From Gammaproteobacteria bacterium (GTDB taxonomy: Bacteria > Pseudomonadota > Gammaproteobacteria > Ga0077536), in NCBI GenBank assembly GCA_021773835.1, contig JAJFJQ010000073.1, positions 186,001 through 250,000 of the forward strand: a DNA stretch of 64,000 nucleotides. The letters run 5' to 3'. Every line of letters starts with the position of its first letter. Position 1 is the stretch's first letter. This document shows positions 30,079-37,407 of the stretch, piece by piece. Under the pieces are notes generated by a model that was not told the DNA's origin, made no database searches, and saw nothing but the letters and a program-made list of their open reading frames with translations. Made by a program: the position numbers and the translations under genes.

Positions 30079-30900
30079 TCACTCGACCGACATTGTTGCG
30101 ATGGTGCAGCCGACGGCGAAAATTGGGATTGGTGCATAGAACCAGATTTCCCCTGTACTACCTTCCGTTGCGCCAGCGATGGCAACAAATGTTCGGATTT
30201 CAAAGCCGCCTTGGCCGGCATCTTGATATGTTTGTTCGTCAGTGTAGGCGACGAGTTGTTCGCGGCGGTTGTTGACGAAGTGATCGAGGAATTGACGATC
30301 CCATTGCTCGTTGATCTGGCCAGAGTCGGGCGTTGCAGGCCAGTGCGAGATGCCGCCGGTGCCAATGATGGCGATCCGCTCGGGTCGCTCATCGCAGGCT
30401 CGGCGCAGCGCTCGACCGAACTCGTAGCAACGATGGAGCGGAATCAAGGGCGGTCCCTGGCAGTTGATATTGACCGGGATGACCGGCAAGTCATACCGCG
30501 GAGTCAGAAAATGTAGCGGTACCATAATACCGTGATCGAACTTCCATTCCTGCGCATAGGCAAGGTCAATATCCTGCATGATCGATTTGATAAGCTGCTC
30601 TGACAGCGCTTCATTCCCCGGTATTTGCGCGCTGTCGATCCCGAGCCACTGTTCATCCTCAATTGGTCCTGTGTATGAGTCAGCCATGCCCATGCAGATG
30701 GCAGGCATGTTATCCATGAAGAAGTTTGCGAAATGTTCTGCCCCTATGACCACTAAGGCGTCGGGATTGGATTGCTCAATTGCGCGTCTAAGTCGATCAA
30801 AATTTGCGTACAATTCGTTCCGTAGGCTCACATCCGCTTGCTCCGCGCGGCCGGTGATCCCAGGTCCATGACTACAGGCGCCGGCGAATACTAAGCTCAT
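30079..30900 (-). CDS. Class III extradiol dioxygenase, LigB-type catalytic subunit
   Basis: A 273-residue LigB-superfamily extradiol ring-cleavage enzyme. The Fe(II) ligands and acid-base residues of LigB are in place: His11 in CSHGPG, His56 in GAEHFANF, Glu234 in GFEIRTF, plus His123 (DHGIMVPL) and the catalytic His186 (GGISHWP). Together with the LigA-type subunit encoded three bases upstream, it should form a LigAB-type alpha2beta2 dioxygenase. In this cluster the expected substrate is homoprotocatechuate (3,4-dihydroxyphenylacetate), cleaved at the 2,3 position. Protocatechuate or gallate are alternatives. It is last in the minus-strand operon. Confidence 0.9.
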   Translation of the reverse strand: MSLVFAGACSHGPGITGRAEQADVSLRNELYANFDRLRRAIEQSNPDALVVIGAEHFANFFMDNMPAICMGMADSYTGPIEDEQWLGIDSAQIPGNEALSEQLIKSIMQDIDLAYAQEWKFDHGIMVPLHFLTPRYDLPVIPVNINCQGPPLIPLHRCYEFGRALRRACDERPERIAIIGTGGISHWPATPDSGQINEQWDRQFLDHFVNNRREQLVAYTDEQTYQDAGQGGFEIRTFVAIAGATEGSTGEIWFYAPIPIFAVGCTIATMSVE

Positions 30901-30903
30901 TGT

Positions 30904-31206
30904 TTAATCCCAAACAGTCGCATACAAACCGGCACGAACGGGACCGTGCTCTACCAGTGCTTGACGCAATGTCGCCAGATATGTGCTCCATTCGAGGCCG
31001 CAGTGTGCCGCAAAGTGCATTAATATCTGTCCGTTAACACCCATGATGTAAAGCAGCCCAATGTCGCCTTCACGCAGCGCCGTGATTTCATCAATGGACA
31101 GATCGTAGTCGCCGATCAGTTGATCGAAATCGGTATCAAAGCGCTTGCGGATATACGGTTCACGATTGACCTGATAGAGGAGTTTTTGGACATAATAAAG
31201 ACTCAT
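30904..31206 (-). CDS. Extradiol dioxygenase LigA-type small subunit
   Basis: A 100-residue helical protein of the LigA family (alpha subunit of protocatechuate 4,5-dioxygenase). It has YQVNREPYIRKRFDTDFDQLIGDYDLSIDEITALREGDIGLLYIMGVNGQIL in reduced form: helices ending with the conserved LREGDIGLLYxMGVNGQ pattern. In LigAB this subunit closes the active site over the substrate. Single-component homoprotocatechuate dioxygenases such as E. coli HpaD lack it. The stop is three bases before the LigB gene's start, and the MarR gene lies three bases upstream, so the operon is very tight. Confidence 0.88.
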   Translation of the reverse strand: MSLYYVQKLLYQVNREPYIRKRFDTDFDQLIGDYDLSIDEITALREGDIGLLYIMGVNGQILMHFAAHCGLEWSTYLATLRQALVEHGPVRAGLYATVWD

Positions 31207-31209
31207 TTG

Positions 31210-31689
31210 TCACAGGCTATCGAGTGATGTAGCGAGTTCTCGAAGAAGCGTATGTAGCTCGGACAATTTGTTTTTGCCGAATGCGGCTTCAATTTTATCG
31301 TAATGGGCTTCTGAATATGGCGCTATTGCATCAAATAAACGCCGACCTTTTTCTGATATGGAGATCCGCGCCCGTCGTTGATCCGACTGCACAGCAAGGC
31401 GCTTCACTAAGCCGCGCTCTTCAAGATTTTGTAATATTCGTGACAGGCTAGGAGATAGGATATAGCTTCGTTTGGCGAGCTCGGTAACTTCCACCTCGAC
31501 CAGGTCTACTAATGCGCGTAACACCCGCCATTGTTGCTCGGTGACGCCGTGCTCCCGCAACATCGGACGAAATTGGCTCATTACTACTTCGCGTGCGCTA
31601 AGCAGCGCCATTGGAAGTGAATGGGCGAAATCCCGCATCGGTAGTGCGCGCTCATGGCTATTATCGAACAGCGCGCTAGATCGTTTCAT
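31210..31689 (-). CDS. MarR family regulator (HpaR-like), inside the catabolic operon
   Basis: A MarR-type dimeric repressor, 159 residues from the ATG at 31689 (an ATG at 31638 is also possible). SLPMALLSAREVVMSQFRPMLREHGVTEQQWRVLRAL is the typical start of the homoprotocatechuate regulator HpaR group, followed by the winged helix (ELAKRSYILSPSLSRILQNLEERGLVKR) and the wing DQRRARISISEKG. The start overlaps the stop of the FAH-family gene by 14 bases. Ligands of HpaR are 4-hydroxyphenylacetate and related compounds. It probably controls the divergent promoter at 33.5 kb. Confidence 0.88.
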   Translation of the reverse strand: MKRSSALFDNSHERALPMRDFAHSLPMALLSAREVVMSQFRPMLREHGVTEQQWRVLRALVDLVEVEVTELAKRSYILSPSLSRILQNLEERGLVKRLAVQSDQRRARISISEKGRRLFDAIAPYSEAHYDKIEAAFGKNKLSELHTLLRELATSLDSL

Positions 31690-32539
31690 CGACAACGCCA
31701 TTGCTGAGCTTGCCAATCGCCGGTGAATCGACTTCGACGATGTCACCGGGTTTGAGATATCTGGGGGGGTCGAAACGGGCACCTGCACCATTTGGTGTGC
31801 CGGTGGAGATAATATCGCCAGGCTTTAGCCGCATGAAAGTCGAGAGGTAACTTAACAAATAGCTAAACGGGAAGAGTAGATTCGCCGTGGTATCGTTTTG
31901 GCGTTGTTCCCCATTGACCTGTGTCTGGATGAGAAGGTTTGTGTAATCGGAGAATTCATCGGCGCTGACCATCCATGGCCCGAAGGATCCCGTCCGTTCA
32001 AAATTTTTGCCTTGGGTAACGTTGAATTTGGCATGTCTAAGCCAATCACGGATCGAACCCTCGTTGATCAACGATAGGCCGGCAATATGATCTATTGCCT
32101 GTTCTTGCGGGATACGACGGCCCTCGCGACCGATTATGATAGCGATTTCACCTTCGTAGTCGAGCTGAATAGATTCGGGCGGTCGGACCAAGGGTTGTTG
32201 ATGGCCGACCAGCGAATCCCGAGTACGCATAAAGACACTGGGGTATTTGGGGAGCGCCGAGTCATCTTTGTACTCGGCATTACGTTTGACGTAGTTGACT
32301 CCAATGCAGATGATTTTTTCGGGGTCGACGACAGGCGGGAGGAATTGGATCTCGTCGATCGAGTAGTCCGGATCCGCGGACGTCAATGCGGCGCGCACCA
32401 CATCCAGTTGCCGTCGCTCCAGTACCTCGCGTAAGGACGAGAACCCGTCGCCCAAACGTGCAGACAAATCGACTACACCGTTATTTACTACCGCGCCGAG
32501 CGCGTTGCGGCCGCCGTATTCGAAGCTTAATAGGCGCAA
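31676..32539 (-). CDS. hpaG: Fumarylacetoacetate hydrolase family enzyme (HpaG-like)
   Basis: A 287-residue FAH-superfamily enzyme. Visible are IICIGVNYVKRNAEY (about 95-109), YPSVFMRTRDSLVGHQQPL, the metal site LDYEGEIAIIIGREGRRI, and the C-terminal KPGDIISTGTPNGAGARF. In the homoprotocatechuate pathway, HpaG decarboxylates 5-oxopent-3-ene-1,2,5-tricarboxylate and isomerises the product. E. coli HpaG is a two-domain fusion of about 430 residues; here only one FAH domain is present, so one homodimer may do both steps or only one. The start is TTG with AGGA about ten bases upstream. The gene lies 14 bases after the DapA-family gene. Confidence 0.9.
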   Translation of the reverse strand: MRLLSFEYGGRNALGAVVNNGVVDLSARLGDGFSSLREVLERRQLDVVRAALTSADPDYSIDEIQFLPPVVDPEKIICIGVNYVKRNAEYKDDSALPKYPSVFMRTRDSLVGHQQPLVRPPESIQLDYEGEIAIIIGREGRRIPQEQAIDHIAGLSLINEGSIRDWLRHAKFNVTQGKNFERTGSFGPWMVSADEFSDYTNLLIQTQVNGEQRQNDTTANLLFPFSYLLSYLSTFMRLKPGDIISTGTPNGAGARFDPPRYLKPGDIVEVDSPAIGKLSNGVVDETI

Positions 32540-32553
32540 TTCAAATTTATTCC

Positions 32554-33450
32554 TTATATCAGCCCGGCGCGTTCGAGTACGCCGTCGAGCCGTTGTTCTA
32601 AGTCGGCGGTTGCCGCCATCATTGGCAGACGATGTTCGTTTTGTGGGATCAGTCCGAGGCGCTTCATCATGTATTTAATCGCAATCGGATTGGTATCGAA
32701 GAAGACCGCCTGATTCAGTTCAAGAAGACGCTGGTGGTGGTCCCGCGCCGCGCCTAAATCGTTATGCCATACCGACTCGCAAATATCGGCTAAGGCCTGC
32801 GGTTTAAGATTGCCGACGGCGTTCATTAACCCGCATGCGCCAACGGCCATCATGGGAAAGGACAGTTCTTCGAGCCCGACGAAAATGCGGAAATCGGTAC
32901 CGAATTCGCTGAGGCATTCGGATACGAATCCGAGGTCGTTGACGGCATGCTTCATACCGACGAAATGCGGCGACTGGTCCTTGATCGCTTTTAGCGTGTC
33001 GAGCGTTACGCTCACTGCTGTCCGGCCAGGGATGTGATAGATCATCCAGGGCAGATCATGTCGTTGGGCGAGCTCGAGATAGTAGGCGGTGATGCCACGT
33101 TGCGGCGGACGAATATAGTACGGGGTGACAATCAACAATGCATCGGCGCCCGCTTTGACCGCATGGTCCGTAAGTTCTTTAGTTTCGGTGAGTGATTGCG
33201 AACCGGTGGCGGCATACACCGGCACACGGCCAGCGCTTACTTCGATAGCAATATCGACGAGGCGGTTTCTCTCCGAGACGGTCAGGGTCGAGGGTTCCGC
33301 AGTTGTGCCATTTACCAGGATCCCGTGCGAACCATTCGCGATTTGGAAGGCCACCAGGTCGGCGTAGGTTGCGTAATCCACTGCCTCCTCCGCTATCGGA
33401 GTGATGATTGGGGGCACTGAACCGCGCAAATGTCCTATTTCCAATCCCAT
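32554..33450 (-). CDS. DapA-family pyruvate lyase (candidate hydratase-aldolase)
   Basis: A 298-residue class I aldolase of the DHDPS/NAL superfamily. The Schiff-base lysine is in FVGMKHAV (about Lys167) and the active-site tyrosine in IYHIPGRT (about Tyr138, Arg143). The pyruvate-carboxylate loop reads GTTAEPSTL. In the E. coli hpa cluster the final steps need a hydratase (HpaH) and a class II aldolase (HpaI), and neither is present here. A DapA-family lyase could perform the retro-aldol step giving pyruvate and succinic semialdehyde, perhaps with hydration, as in NahE-type hydratase-aldolases. True lysine biosynthesis (DapA) is less likely in this context. GAGGAG precedes the ATG. It is first in the operon. 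Confidence 0.88.
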   Translation of the reverse strand: MGLEIGHLRGSVPPIITPIAEEAVDYATYADLVAFQIANGSHGILVNGTTAEPSTLTVSERNRLVDIAIEVSAGRVPVYAATGSQSLTETKELTDHAVKAGADALLIVTPYYIRPPQRGITAYYLELAQRHDLPWMIYHIPGRTAVSVTLDTLKAIKDQSPHFVGMKHAVNDLGFVSECLSEFGTDFRIFVGLEELSFPMMAVGACGLMNAVGNLKPQALADICESVWHNDLGAARDHHQRLLELNQAVFFDTNPIAIKYMMKRLGLIPQNEHRLPMMAATADLEQRLDGVLERAGLI

Positions 33451-33500
33451 GAAAGACTCCTCAAAATGAGATGTTCGGCGCCGTGCGCATGGACGATATA

Positions 33501-33514
33501 CTTAACATGTTAAG
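33501..33514. promoter_or_regulatory. Perfect 14-bp palindrome in the divergent hpa promoter region
   Basis: CTTAACATGTTAAG is a perfect palindrome midway between the divergent DapA-family and hpaF genes. Its size and AT-rich arms suit a MarR-type operator. On the minus strand, TTGCCA (33530-33535) and TAACAT (33507-33512) are spaced by 17 bases and would form a promoter whose -10 lies inside the palindrome. The operator role is inferred. Confidence 0.55.
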
Positions 33515-33573
33515 CGTATTGCGTTAGGCTGGCAATCATAATCAAGATCTCATACTGAAGAGTCCATAGAGCG

Positions 33574-33969
33574 ATGCCGCATTTCATTGTTGAATATTCC
33601 GCTAATTTAGCGCCAGAGGTGGATATCGAAGGCCTCGTCGCGGTAGTGCACCGTGCGGCGATCGCGACCGGCATCTTTCCGCTGAAGGGCACCCGGACGC
33701 GTGCCTCCCGCCGGGAGATTTATATTGTCGCCGACGGTCACCGCGACAATACCTTCGTACACGTCAGCGCGAGAATCGGCCACGGACGTCCACTCGAGGT
33801 CCGAACGCAAGCCGGCGAGGCGGTCTTCAACGCGGCACGTGAATTTCTCCGTCCCTATTTCGAATCACATCCGCTTGCACTGTCGTTTGAAATGCAAGAG
33901 ATCGAACCTGGAACGAGTTTTAAGTCGAACAACCTGCCTCAATGGATCGAAAGCCGAGAACCTACGTGA
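33574..33969 (+). CDS. hpaF: 5-carboxymethyl-2-hydroxymuconate delta-isomerase
   Basis: A 131-residue tautomerase-superfamily enzyme (CHMI, HpaF/HpcD). After removal of Met, the catalytic Pro1 is exposed in PHFIVEYSANL, as in characterised CHMI. Further conserved segments are FPLKGTRTRA and FVHVSARIGHGRPLEVR. It converts 5-carboxymethyl-2-hydroxymuconate to 5-oxopent-3-ene-1,2,5-tricarboxylate after the HpaE step. Its presence makes a homoprotocatechuate pathway much more likely than a protocatechuate one. Its 3' end overlaps the hpaE start by 28 bases. Confidence 0.94.
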   Translation: MPHFIVEYSANLAPEVDIEGLVAVVHRAAIATGIFPLKGTRTRASRREIYIVADGHRDNTFVHVSARIGHGRPLEVRTQAGEAVFNAAREFLRPYFESHPLALSFEMQEIEPGTSFKSNNLPQWIESREPT

Positions 33970-35486
33970 GCGTGAGAGAAGACAACCTAGAGCGTGCTGC
34001 AGAATTCCTTAATCGATTTCGCTCTAAGCCATTACCGCATTTTATCAATGGTGAACAGGTGTCGAGTCACGGCGCAGCGGTATTCGATAATGTCACGCCC
34101 GTCGACAACAGCAGTCTAGGTAAGGTCTGCGCAGGCACCCCGGCCGATATTGACGGCGCGGCGAGCGCGGCGCGTGACGCATTCGATAGCTGGCGCCGCG
34201 TTTCCGGTATAGACCGAAAACGACTACTCCACCGGGTCGCCGATGCGATAGTGGCGCGGCAGGACGAGATCGCATTGGTCGAGAGCATCGATACCGGGCA
34301 GCCGATCCGCTACATGAGTAAGGCCGCGATAAGAGGCGCGGAGAATTTTAGATTCTTCGCCGATCGAGCGCCGAGTAGCCGTGATGGTCTGGCCTTGCCG
34401 GCAGAGGAACATCTCAATTACACGCTACGGCAGCCAATTGGACCGGTGGGAGTGATCACACCGTGGAATACACCATTCATGCTGTCGACCTGGAAGATCG
34501 CGCCCGCGTTAGCAGCAGGCTGTACAGTGGTGCATAAACCGGCGGAGTGGAGTCCGCTAACCGCCGCCTTATTGGCAGAGATCTGTCATGAGGCTGGTTT
34601 GCCGGATGGCGTACTCAACACGGTACAGGGATCTGGTGAAATCGCGGGCAAGGCCTTGACCGAACATGCTGCGATCAAGGCAATCGCGTTCGTCGGTGAA
34701 TCTAGCACTGGCGCTCAGATAATGGGTCAAGGCGCACCGAGCTTAAAGCGCCTACATGCTGAACTCGGCGGTAAGAACCCGGTCATCGTATTCGCGGATG
34801 CGGACCTTGAACGGGCGCTAGATGCCGTCGTTTTTATGATTTATAGCCTCAATGGTGAGCGCTGCACATCCTCTAGCCGAGTACTCATTCAGGCCTCGAT
34901 ATACGATCAATTCACCGCAGCAATCCGCGACCGCGCGTTGCGTCTTAAGGTCGGACATCCCTTGGACCCCAGTGTTGAAATTGGCCCGCTGATCCACCCT
35001 CATCATTTGGACAAGGTCACGAAGTACTTCGATATTGCTCGAGCAGAGGGCGCGACAATCGCCGCCGGCGCACAAAAATGGCCTGAAAGTAAACTCGGCA
35101 ACTATGTCGAACCAACCCTATTTACCCATGCCACCGAGAGTATGCGCATCGCGAGCGAGGAGATCTTTGGTCCAGTGTTGACGGCGATACCTTTTGGTGA
35201 CGACAACGATGCGTTAAGGATCGCGAACGATGTCCAGTACGGATTGGCAGCCTACCTCTGGACCAGTGATATTGAGCGAGGCCATCGGTTCGCGCGTGAC
35301 CTAGACGCCGGTATGATTTGGGTGAATTCGGAAAACAATCGCCATCTACCCGCTCCTTTTGGTGGTATGAAGGCTAGCGGCATTGGGCGAGACGGCGGTG
35401 ATTATAGTTTCGATTTTTATATGGAAACTAAAAACGTATGTGTTGCCCTTGGGGGGCACGCGATTCCACAGATCGGCACAGCATAG
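33942..35486 (+). CDS. hpaE: 5-carboxymethyl-2-hydroxymuconate semialdehyde dehydrogenase
   Basis: A 514-residue aldehyde dehydrogenase of the HpaE group. Key residues: VITPWNTPFMLSTWKIAPAL (about 171-190), VHKPAEWSPL with the NAD-binding lysine, catalytic base Glu274 in AELGGKNP, and nucleophile Cys308 in NGERCTSSSR. EEIFGPVLTAIPF and the end APFGGMKASGIGRDGG are standard. It oxidises the ring-cleavage semialdehyde with NAD. The ATG at 33942 overlaps hpaF by 28 bases; a GTG at 33966 overlapping the hpaF stop is a possible alternative. Its end lies seven bases from the convergent hpaB stop. Confidence 0.94.
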   Translation: MDRKPRTYVSVREDNLERAAEFLNRFRSKPLPHFINGEQVSSHGAAVFDNVTPVDNSSLGKVCAGTPADIDGAASAARDAFDSWRRVSGIDRKRLLHRVADAIVARQDEIALVESIDTGQPIRYMSKAAIRGAENFRFFADRAPSSRDGLALPAEEHLNYTLRQPIGPVGVITPWNTPFMLSTWKIAPALAAGCTVVHKPAEWSPLTAALLAEICHEAGLPDGVLNTVQGSGEIAGKALTEHAAIKAIAFVGESSTGAQIMGQGAPSLKRLHAELGGKNPVIVFADADLERALDAVVFMIYSLNGERCTSSSRVLIQASIYDQFTAAIRDRALRLKVGHPLDPSVEIGPLIHPHHLDKVTKYFDIARAEGATIAAGAQKWPESKLGNYVEPTLFTHATESMRIASEEIFGPVLTAIPFGDDNDALRIANDVQYGLAAYLWTSDIERGHRFARDLDAGMIWVNSENNRHLPAPFGGMKASGIGRDGGDYSFDFYMETKNVCVALGGHAIPQIGTA

Positions 35487-35493
35487 AAAGTCG

Positions 35494-36939
35494 TTACCCC
35501 GTCCTGCCCAGCAACTCGTAAACCCGCTCGACGTATTCGTCTTTGTTATAAAGTCCAAAGTAGCTTGATGCCATAATATTCGGCGGGCCGAAGAAAAAGC
35601 GCTCATACAAGGCCTGACGCCCGCCGAACCCGGAAACTGCGACGTCGTGTGCGAGTCGGAACAGAGCGATACGCTCGCGGCTACCGAGGTGGGCGAGCTG
35701 TAAATACTGCTCGACGTCGGCACTGAGTTCATTTTTAAGGTCTGCTTCACATGGGGTCGCCATCAGCGAACTGGACCCCAGGAGCTGGACTAATTCGATC
35801 AGGCGAGGGTATAGCTTCGGGAACAGGTTTCGCGCTGTATCAAGGGGGCGGCGAAGTGGTGTAAAAAGTCCCCACTGATCTTCCGCTGCTTGCTGTTCTG
35901 CGCTGTAGACGAACGCGCGCATCGTCTCTGCAATCCACATTGCCTCAGCAATTTGCCCTTGAACGTATATGTCTTTGTCGCGTTCGCTGGCACGAGTCAT
36001 CGCACATAGTAGTCCGACGATGAATTCCGCTTTGGCCAGATTTTTACACACTACCTGATGCATCATGTGGACGACGGCATTGGTCTCGGCGTATGCACGA
36101 TTACATAGTTCCGGGTCGTCATAGAGGAAAACTCGTTCCCATGGGACCAAGACTTTATCGAAGACCACGATACAGTCCATTTCTTCAAACCGACCAGATA
36201 ACGGCGCGTCAAACAAGGATTTGCCTTGGTCATAGCTGTCCCGACAAATGTACTTCATGCCATTGGTGTTGTTCGGGAGGGCGAAGGCGAGCGCGTAGGG
36301 CTTCATTTCAGGCGCCGCCTTCAATACGGTCGACGGGAATACGGCAATCTCATCCGACAATGGACCAAGCGTTGCAAGCAATCTTGCGCCCGAGACGATG
36401 AGACCTGCGTCGGTTTCTTTTTCCACGCGTAATGCAACTTCGGGGCTCGCTAAGCCTTGTGCTGTTAGCTGCCGATTGACTTGAGGGTTGACCAAGGTGT
36501 GCGTCAATATGAGATCGTGTTTTCGTATCCTCTTGTAATAGTTTCGGACGTTGTCCGCGAATTGTGGACGGCATTGGGCGAAATAATCCGCTGCGCCTGC
36601 AAACGCCATGAACGAGCAATTGAGATAGTCTGGCGTTCGCCCCATCATGCCGTTTGACCACTTGGCCCAGTCATAAAAGGCCGCGCCGCGCCGAGCTACG
36701 TCGGCTACGGACTTCGGTTGCAGGAACGACATCGCATAGCGTTCATTGCCCGCTTCACAATAACTCAGTTGCGAGGAAAGCCCTTCCTCGTGTTGTCGGT
36801 CCAACAACCGCGCCATCGACGCTGCGCCACGCCTGAGTTTGGGATGGGTGGTGACATCTTCAACGCGGCTGCCTTCAAGCCAGACTTCGCGATCATCGCG
36901 AAGTCGGTTTAGATAGTCATTGCCTGTGCATATCCCCAT
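35494..36939 (-). CDS. hpaB: 4-hydroxyphenylacetate 3-monooxygenase, oxygenase component
   Basis: A 481-residue FADH2-utilising hydroxylase of the HpaB/PvcC/HpaH family, hydroxylating 4-hydroxyphenylacetate to homoprotocatechuate. Family segments: TGNDYLNRLRDDREVWLEG at the start, FYDWAKWSNGMMGRTPDYLN (about 90-109), LTHTLVNPQVNRQ, an active-site VPWERVFLYDD, and a helical C-terminal end. The two-component enzyme needs a flavin reductase (HpaC), which is not in this window. GGAG eight bases upstream fixes the ATG at 36939. It is 18 bases after the MarR gene and likely co-transcribed with it. Confidence 0.94.
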   Translation of the reverse strand: MGICTGNDYLNRLRDDREVWLEGSRVEDVTTHPKLRRGAASMARLLDRQHEEGLSSQLSYCEAGNERYAMSFLQPKSVADVARRGAAFYDWAKWSNGMMGRTPDYLNCSFMAFAGAADYFAQCRPQFADNVRNYYKRIRKHDLILTHTLVNPQVNRQLTAQGLASPEVALRVEKETDAGLIVSGARLLATLGPLSDEIAVFPSTVLKAAPEMKPYALAFALPNNTNGMKYICRDSYDQGKSLFDAPLSGRFEEMDCIVVFDKVLVPWERVFLYDDPELCNRAYAETNAVVHMMHQVVCKNLAKAEFIVGLLCAMTRASERDKDIYVQGQIAEAMWIAETMRAFVYSAEQQAAEDQWGLFTPLRRPLDTARNLFPKLYPRLIELVQLLGSSSLMATPCEADLKNELSADVEQYLQLAHLGSRERIALFRLAHDVAVSGFGGRQALYERFFFGPPNIMASSYFGLYNKDEYVERVYELLGRTG

Positions 36940-36957
36940 TGCTTCACTCTCCAAACG

Positions 36958-37407
36958 TTAGCCATTGCTCAGTGCATCGCTCTTAGCCGCTGCCGAGCGG
37001 TTGATTTGATCCATTGCTTCGAACAGCGAATCCCACAGTGCCGGCGTGACCGATGCTTCAAGTTCGCGGTAGATTGCGTCTATGCGTGGCCGCACGGTAC
37101 GTTCCAATGCCTTCCCCTTACGCGTGACTAGGATGTGTACGACCCGGCGATCCACTTTCGAACGGCGGCGTTCGACCAGGCCGTCGCGGGACAAACGGTC
37201 GACGATCCCCACTAAGCTCGGACTAGATATTAAAGTCGCCTGTGCGAGTGCGAGCAGGCTCTGACCATTGGCGTCCCACAGTACACGCAGAACCCGCCAC
37301 TGTTGTTCGGTGATCCCGAATTCGTGATAGATCGCGCGAAAGGGCGGGAGCACGCTGTCGAGGGTGCGATAAAGCATCATTGGTAGCGATCGGTGAAAGT
37401 CATTCAT
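36958..37407 (-). CDS. hpaR: MarR family repressor (HpaR-like) of hpaB
   Basis: A 149-residue MarR regulator. MNDFHRSLPMMLYRTLDSVLPPFRAIYHEFGITEQQWRVLRVL-type N-terminal helices are typical of the HpaR group; the winged helix (ALAQATLISSPSLVGIVDRLSRDGLVERRR) and wing (KVDRRVVHILVTRKG) follow. It is the first gene of an hpaR-hpaB unit. A 22-bp perfect palindrome covering its putative -10 lies just upstream, so autorepression relieved by 4-hydroxyphenylacetate is likely by analogy. It is one of two MarR genes in this cluster, and they are clearly different sequences. Confidence 0.9.
   Translation of the reverse strand: MNDFHRSLPMMLYRTLDSVLPPFRAIYHEFGITEQQWRVLRVLWDANGQSLLALAQATLISSPSLVGIVDRLSRDGLVERRRSKVDRRVVHILVTRKGKALERTVRPRIDAIYRELEASVTPALWDSLFEAMDQINRSAAAKSDALSNG

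Follow-up and report, generated by a model that had tools for sequence, protein, structure and literature searches.

A DapA-family lyase may replace both HpaH and HpaI in homoprotocatechuate degradation clusters

Gene organisation of the locus

In the 64,000-nucleotide stretch of DNA that was analysed (hereafter the window), a minus-strand gene read from 33450 to 32554 starts with ATG, is intact and encodes a 298-residue product, for which we use the working name DapL in the present analysis; the plus strand of the same segment is broken up by stops (Table 1). DapL matched the Pfam DHDPS model PF00701 with 222.3 bits against a gathering cut-off of 22.1, which places it in the DapA/NAL superfamily. 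The sequence-only reading of this DNA had taken the gene to be the first of a ring-cleavage operon and had singled out Lys167, Tyr138 and Arg143 in its product. Both points were borne out. The gene heads a tightly packed minus-strand series in the order dapL, FAH-family gene (HpaG-like), hpaR, ligA-like gene and ligB-like gene, with a gap of 14 bp between dapL and the FAH gene, and all three residues are found under these numbers and are invariant in 29/29 aligned homologues, as are His139 and His168.

The hpaF and hpaE genes lie on the plus strand, divergent from the dapL series, and are followed by hpaB. As HpaE, HpaB-1 and HpaR all scored over their NCBIfam cut-offs, the pathway was assigned as that of 4-hydroxyphenylacetate degradation via homoprotocatechuate (HPC). 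The TIGR02337 model matches residues 58-186 of the hpaR product, and the true start of hpaR is therefore probably internal. Ring cleavage in the window is assigned to a two-subunit LigAB-type dioxygenase (30079-31206) and not to HpaD; in other DapL clusters this step falls to HpaD or to an extradiol enzyme of type I. The near-palindrome found between dapL and hpaF is a candidate HpaR operator, and reading of the intergenic regions of 12 other HPC-type loci located its core TTAACATGTTAA, at times with 1-2 changes, in most of them.

Table 1. Features of the dapL locus, with positions in the window
Feature	Position	Strand	Basis
dapL, DapA-superfamily Schiff-base lyase, proposed hydratase-aldolase on 2-oxohept-3-ene-1,7-dioate	32554..33450	-	PF00701, alignment, tree
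Lys167 codon (Schiff-base lysine by homology)	32950..32952	-	counted from ORF
His168 codon	32947-32949	-	counted from ORF
Arg143 codon (equivalent of DHDPS Arg138)	33022..33024	-	counted from ORF
Tyr138 codon	33037-33039	-	counted from ORF
His139 codon	33034-33036	-	counted from ORF
Single-domain FAH-family protein, HpaG C-terminal-like, OPET decarboxylase candidate	31676..32539	-	PF01557; TIGR02303 164.8 bits, below cut-off
hpaR, MarR-family regulator	31210..31791	-	TIGR02337 166.9 bits, over cut-off
LigA-like small subunit, ring-cleavage dioxygenase	30904..31206	-	PF07746 36.3 bits
LigB-like catalytic subunit, ring-cleavage dioxygenase, in place of HpaD	30079..30900	-	PF02900 145 bits; HpaD_Fe model just 25 bits
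hpaF, 5-carboxymethyl-2-hydroxymuconate isomerase	33574..33969	+	PF02962 143.7 bits
hpaE	33942..35486	+	TIGR02299 778.5 bits, over cut-off
hpaB, 4-hydroxyphenylacetate 3-monooxygenase oxygenase component	35494..36954	-	TIGR02309 583.7 bits, over cut-off
Second MarR-family regulator adjoining hpaB	36958..37407	-	TIGR02337 99.3 bits, below cut-off
24-bp near-palindrome, core TTAACATGTTAA, between dapL and hpaF; candidate HpaR operator	33496..33519	.	4/200 shuffles equally good within window

Absence of HpaH and HpaI from the source genome

Profile searches of the whole source genome found no orthologue of HpaH (TIGR02312; best matches of 238 and 224 bits against a cut-off of 351.5) and none of HpaI (TIGR02311; a sole match of 191 bits against a cut-off of 368.8), in agreement with the earlier observation, made on the window, that neither gene is present. 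Since the assembly (6.1 Mb) consists of 74 contigs and is 98% complete, this absence is strong but not absolute. The two HpaH-like genes were weighed as the missing hydratase and rejected as orthologues, since each passes a catechol-pathway cut-off of its own: one is dmpE (421 bits), the other dmpH (406 bits), and both belong to a catechol cluster. DapL itself gave no match to TIGR02312 or TIGR02311 at E 0.001. A canonical dapA is located on another contig (PF00701 329.5 bits against 221.9 for DapL), and its product shares 30% identity with DapL.

Distribution of DapL and its exchange with hpaH-hpaI

Relatives of DapL were collected by scanning exact peptide patterns over 84,980 species genomes, which returned 28 loci with 58-87% identity, mostly from metagenome assemblies. 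Among plasmid records, five Paraburkholderia proteins showed 67% identity and the next match 39%, a drop which indicates that the family is discrete. Within the family of one DapL-bearing genome (G370), DapL was found in 2/249 and 2/397 genomes (the same two). Across many lineages the gene is found in clusters for aromatic ring cleavage, with two kinds of neighbourhood: HPC clusters (kind A; the window, L012-L024 and L037) and clusters in which a cupin dioxygenase gene directly precedes dapL (kind B). The cluster of one locus, L033, is nearly the same as that of the gammaproteobacterial L034; its record, an environmental metagenome assembly, is titled Klebsiella pneumoniae, probably wrongly.

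For comparison with the DapL loci, hpaF-bearing regions were drawn, blind to DapL, from samples of 369 and 398 genomes. The former gave 12 hpaF places, down to 78 bits, from 41 genomes with a match, and the latter 47 places with hpaF matches of about 90 bits or more, from 97 genomes with a match (one genome, G107, had already been read). Both hpaF and hpaE had to be present in the fetched DNA for a cluster to be counted, by which some hpaF places without hpaE were not entered and L012 (neither gene in the fetched DNA) and L024 (no hpaE) were left out of the 13 HPC clusters with DapL. As no hpaF-drawn region besides the window contained DapL, the DapL side of the comparison comes from the homologue search.

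Neither hpaH (0/13) nor hpaI (0/13) was found in the clusters with DapL, whereas hpaH was present in 41 of the 49 clusters without it, together with hpaI in 22 and on its own in 19. The Fisher p value for hpaH was 2.4e-8, or 2.1e-9 without L076, L079 and L140, both values being too optimistic owing to kinship among the genomes. These three loci end at a contig edge and belong to the eight clusters without DapL that lack both genes, and local absence alone is therefore no proof. L077, L081 and L083 carry the most weight: these LigAB-type clusters have hpaI-hpaH and no dapL, and they resemble the window in LigB (64-67% identity), in HpaE where present (64-66%) and, in L081, in the FAH protein (55%). 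HpaH of L077 and L081 scored 405 and 399 bits, over the cut-off, and HpaI 342 and 359 bits, just below the cut-off of 368.8, while HpaH of L083 was identified solely by its 52% identity to the E. coli protein. Three further loci (L146, L154 and L155) contain hpaE, hpaF and an FAH gene with no hpaH, hpaI or DapL nearby; a type I extradiol dioxygenase was confirmed in L146 and L155.

Across the 14 whole genomes of kind A, HpaH reached its cut-off in one, G372 (the genome of L015), with 351.5 bits. HpaI exceeded its cut-off in 0/14; G372 encodes a protein of 362.9 bits beside its HpaH, and all other hits were of 181 bits or less. The G372 hpaH-hpaI pair (L087:9545-11190) is carried on a contig other than that of DapL, where no further hpa gene was recognised within ~9 kb of it, and this genome is a counter-example to strict exclusion between DapL and hpaH-hpaI. 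In an HpaE tree built by a quick method, the DapL rows formed a grade with three changes, which is compatible with one origin as well.

The cupin dioxygenase of kind B is remotely similar to 5-aminosalicylate, gentisate and nitrosalicylate 1,2-dioxygenases and was present in 22 of the 23 non-HPC DapL loci read, the exception being L030, where DapL has no cupin nearby. A reverse search by cupin instead of by DapL was run over plasmids and 156 genomes of one family. Eight plasmid records were obtained, five from Paraburkholderia, two from Rhodococcus and one from Cupriavidus necator (pBB1, L186). All five Paraburkholderia records have dapL adjoining (three by neighbourhood reading, two by coordinates), and in both Rhodococcus records a 36% DapA homologue lies about 7.6 kb off, with no HpaH or HpaI in 31 kb. 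The pBB1 cluster has no DapL and encodes HpaH (446 bits) and HpaI (402 bits), both over their cut-offs. In the family sample the cupin occurred in 6/156 genomes, five with dapL and one (L198) without; L198 shows the order Hyp, OCD, cupin, hpaH, hpaI, and its hpaH starts 18 bp past the end of the cupin match. Overall, hpaH and hpaI are absent from all 22 cupin clusters with DapL, some of which are on short contigs down to 4 kb (L029), and both are present in 2/2 without DapL.

The strongest sign that DapL would do the joint work of HpaH and HpaI is the recurrence of the one-for-two exchange in this second pathway. Gene content at L198:7600-13504 and L186:4524-11083 suggests an undescribed aromatic pathway that would end in the lower homoprotocatechuate pathway, and also suggests convergence on a C7 2-oxo-enedioate, the same intermediate as in the HPC pathway; its substrate may be salicylate-like. 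An alphaproteobacterial cupin-DapL cluster has a UbiD-type decarboxylase gene upstream (L026:6892-8295), hinting at a carboxylated aromatic substrate. Many cupin clusters also encode, beside an ornithine-cyclodeaminase-like gene, a conserved protein of ~199 residues with no Pfam or NCBIfam match (L041:10885-11484 and homologues).

Phylogeny and active-site residues

In a tree of 72 proteins, DapL formed a clade of 33 rows with a support of 98/100. The HPC rows (kind A) made up a single clade of 15 rows (95/88) nested within it, and the deeper DapL branches had the cupin context of kind B, some inner forks being weak (81/42). This nesting suggests that DapL entered the HPC pathway once, at a later stage. 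The four NahE/PhdJ-type rows (100/100) were placed far from both DapL and DapA. In a smaller tree, which carries a warning of long branches for its actinobacterial rows, DapL (15 rows, 100/99) and DapA (14 rows, 100/99) were on different branches. The comparison tree took DapA and NahE/PhdJ-type rows, with NanA rows left out. A tree of this kind had been proposed in the earlier reading, which had likened the pathway intermediate to the substrates of NahE-type hydratase-aldolases; in the tree DapL is neither among DapA nor a member of the NahE/PhdJ group, and occupies a separate branch. If DapL is a hydratase-aldolase, it would thus be a parallel solution.

DapL keeps the DHDPS residues Thr49, Thr50 (Ser in two sequences), Tyr112, Tyr138, Arg143, Lys167 and Gly192. 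Specific to DapL are Asn47, Ala/Ser51, Pro53, His139, His168, Val170 (which varies), Leu193, Glu194, Met209, Asn210 and Ala211, and the residues near the active site differ from those of 30/30 DapA compared (the DapA column of the residue table holds 31 entries including L115, itself a DapL). The available text of PMC5380162 names two binding residues in E. coli DHDPS: Arg138 for the C7 carboxylate of the adduct, and Asp188 for the ammonium group of aspartate semialdehyde. By alignment these correspond to Arg143 and Glu194 of DapL, the latter position being changed and not lost. The earlier suggestion that Arg143 could bind the distal carboxylate is strengthened by this equivalence with the C7-carboxylate binder Arg138 (PMC5380162, in part). 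A structure model of DapL (pLDDT 89) confirmed the DHDPS fold, its closest matches among solved structures being DHDPS (Z 40.5, rmsd 1.5, 291 residues aligned); NahE and PhdJ are absent among the best 50 structure matches listed, which is uninformative on their relationship.

A more distant homologue was located in an HPC-type cluster of the actinomycete Embleya, where a protein with 39% identity to DapL is encoded between an HpaG-like gene and hpaE, together with a type I extradiol dioxygenase and with no HpaH or HpaI within 31 kb. Relatives of the Embleya protein in Rhodococcus have a cupin/OCD context. As the Embleya and Rhodococcus proteins are without most of the DapL-specific residues, the trait would be older than those residues or would have arisen twice.

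Proposed reaction and alternatives

We propose that DapL is a class I Schiff-base hydratase-aldolase, one metal-free enzyme that would replace HpaH and HpaI, and we put the probability of this reading at about 0.83. The gene and its context, the absences, the swaps, the clade and the residues were observed, whereas both catalytic steps, the roles of the residues and the independence from metals are predicted. The idea that one Schiff-base lyase may serve for both proteins had been raised from the window, and it gained support from the comparative evidence (13/13 HPC clusters and the exchange in two pathways). Because HpaH is absent along with HpaI, more than HpaI would have been replaced, as replacement of HpaI only would leave HpaH in place.

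In the proposed mechanism, Lys167 would form an imine with C2 of 2-oxohept-3-ene-1,7-dioate (OHED), activating the C3=C4 bond, and addition of water to C4 would yield 4-hydroxy-2-oxoheptane-1,7-dioate (HKHD) as its imine. Retro-aldol cleavage assisted by Tyr138 would then release succinic semialdehyde followed by pyruvate. Arg143, in the role that Arg138 has in DHDPS, would hold the distal C7 carboxylate. His139, beside Tyr138, and His168, beside Lys167, are candidates for water handling, a guess made from their position. As with NahE and PhdJ, the substrate proposed here, OHED, belongs to the 2-oxo-3-enoic acids. The DHDPS adduct is HKHD plus an amino group, and this sole difference would explain how a DapA ancestor could take up an HKHD-type substrate. 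In Acinetobacter baumannii, the available text of PMC12718150 describes an HpaH counterpart (OHEDH) that acts on OHED and needs Mn2+, and an HpaE that also oxidises succinic semialdehyde. By analogy with this HpaE, the window cluster could be complete down to succinate.

Several features speak against a hydratase-aldolase. DapL scores over the dapA cut-off, keeps Thr49, Thr50, Tyr112, Tyr138, Arg143 and Lys167 and has Glu194 in the position of Asp188, and the known hydratase-aldolases of NahE type are without Arg143 and Tyr112. The hpaH-hpaI pair of G372 and the 8/49 clusters without DapL, hpaH or hpaI also weigh against it. DapL is very unlikely to be a dihydrodipicolinate synthase, ordinary or spare, that came to lie in the operon by chance. 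Its membership of the TIGR00674 dapA model (250.1 bits against a cut-off of 206.15), by which automatic annotation would probably call it dapA, and its nearest solved structures agree with such an assignment, and against it stand the canonical dapA elsewhere in the genome with 30% identity to DapL, the separate clade (98/100) found in ring-cleavage clusters of many lineages, and near-active-site residues unlike those of all 30 DapA. Some other reaction of the superfamily, which includes dehydratases (PMC13398020, in part), for example a dehydration as by KdgD, is barely credible: DapL scored 87.5 bits on the KdgD model against a cut-off of 374, and the swaps with hpaH-hpaI seen in two pathways indicate the combined HpaH and HpaI step.

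We regard as unlikely, in view of the gene distribution, that DapL replaces HpaI alone, with hydration left to the FAH protein of the operon, to dmpE of the catechol pathway elsewhere, or to a slow and non-enzymatic process. Running DHDPS in reverse on a substrate that lacks the amino group amounts to the HpaI reaction, DapL retains every main DHDPS residue, NCBI already names a DapA-type HpaI (TIGR02313), and the genome has a dmpE hydratase of its own. What argues the other way is that HpaH is missing together with HpaI in 13/13 HPC and 22/22 cupin DapL clusters, and that no HpaH-family match was obtained at E 0.001 in four of the 14 kind A genomes (G370, G375, G377 and G378), mostly assemblies of unknown completeness. 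FAH proteins 50-60% identical to that of the window are encoded beside hpaH in clusters without DapL (L078, L081, L082 and L131), which makes a takeover of hydration by the FAH protein unlikely.

Favouring the joint hydratase-aldolase, we lean slightly towards a wider account: DapL would be an unrecognised clade of the DapA branch, a hydratase-aldolase independent of NahE and PhdJ, perhaps with a new water-handling pair (His139 and His168), that arose beside a cupin dioxygenase in a pathway also converging on a C7 2-oxo-enedioate, was taken into the HPC pathway once and was repeatedly exchanged, one for two, with the metal enzymes HpaH and HpaI.

Significance

The open PMC literature, to which the search was confined (subscription papers being outside its scope), yielded no description of such a two-for-one replacement by a DapA-type enzyme in the HPC/4-hydroxyphenylacetate pathway. 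A DapA-type HpaI has already been named (TIGR02313); the one-for-two replacement of HpaH and HpaI did not turn up in the papers searched. In Sphingomonas wittichii RW1, the available text of PMC3425912 reports that Swit_3087, annotated as a 2,4-dihydroxyhept-2-ene-1,7-dioate aldolase, is about 17-fold up on salicylate and adjoins a gentisate-dioxygenase-like gene near an OPET decarboxylase. According to the same text, its authors could not connect salicylate with homoprotocatechuate, and none of Swit_3083-3094 appeared essential in a transposon scan, yet the table marks Swit_3087 insertions as depleted. The kind B cupin cluster would be such a connection and would bear on this region if Swit_3087 is a DapL.

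DapL would close a gap because of which these genomes would seem incapable of completing 4-hydroxyphenylacetate degradation, and the proposed function would correct a likely automatic annotation as dapA. If true, a single gene would have cleanly displaced two unrelated ones in two pathways, and hydratase-aldolase chemistry would have originated a second time within the DapA superfamily, giving a metal-free pyruvate lyase for C7 dicarboxylates with possible use in biocatalysis.

Comparison with known systems

The TIGR02313 family (HpaI-NOT-DapA, a DapA-family 2,4-dihydroxyhept-2-ene-1,7-dioate aldolase) is, like DapL, a DapA-superfamily enzyme proposed for the HpaI step; its name covers the aldolase step only, whereas hydration and the aldol step are both proposed for DapL. 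The model, presumably built on Thermus and Oceanobacillus proteins, is the best-scoring NCBIfam model for DapL (274.1 bits), 123 bits short of its cut-off of 396.7. This best match was set aside as evidence of function and is not diagnostic, since ordinary DapA (defined by tree and residues in the 398-genome sample) scored about alike, with about 260-304 bits and none over the cut-off. The actinobacterial homologues gave 335 and 346 bits, also below the cut-off, which was exceeded in 2/14 control genomes.

In NahE and PhdJ (PDB 6DAO, 6DAN), one Schiff-base superfamily enzyme carries out both the hydration of a 2-oxo-3-enoic acid and the cleavage that releases pyruvate, as proposed for DapL. 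They differ from DapL in having aryl substrates, in their distant position in the tree, in the lack of Arg at position 143 and in having Trp for Tyr112. PhdJ works after a cupin dioxygenase, and DapL homologues in cupin clusters probably do likewise. E. coli HpaH and HpaI catalyse the same two homoprotocatechuate steps and are present in most clusters without DapL; unlike DapL, they are two unrelated metal-dependent proteins with FAH/MhpD and HpcH/HpaI folds, HpaI being a class II metal aldolase (PMC8560999, in part).

Lastly, DHDPS (DapA) has the fold, the Schiff-base lysine, the Tyr and the C7-carboxylate Arg in common with DapL. More specifically, His139, His168, Val170 (which varies), Leu193, Met209 and Asn210 of DapL correspond to Asn, Glu/Asp, Thr, mostly Asp, Ile and Ser of DapA. 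DHDPS works in the opposite direction to that proposed for DapL, whose substrate would be without the amino group.
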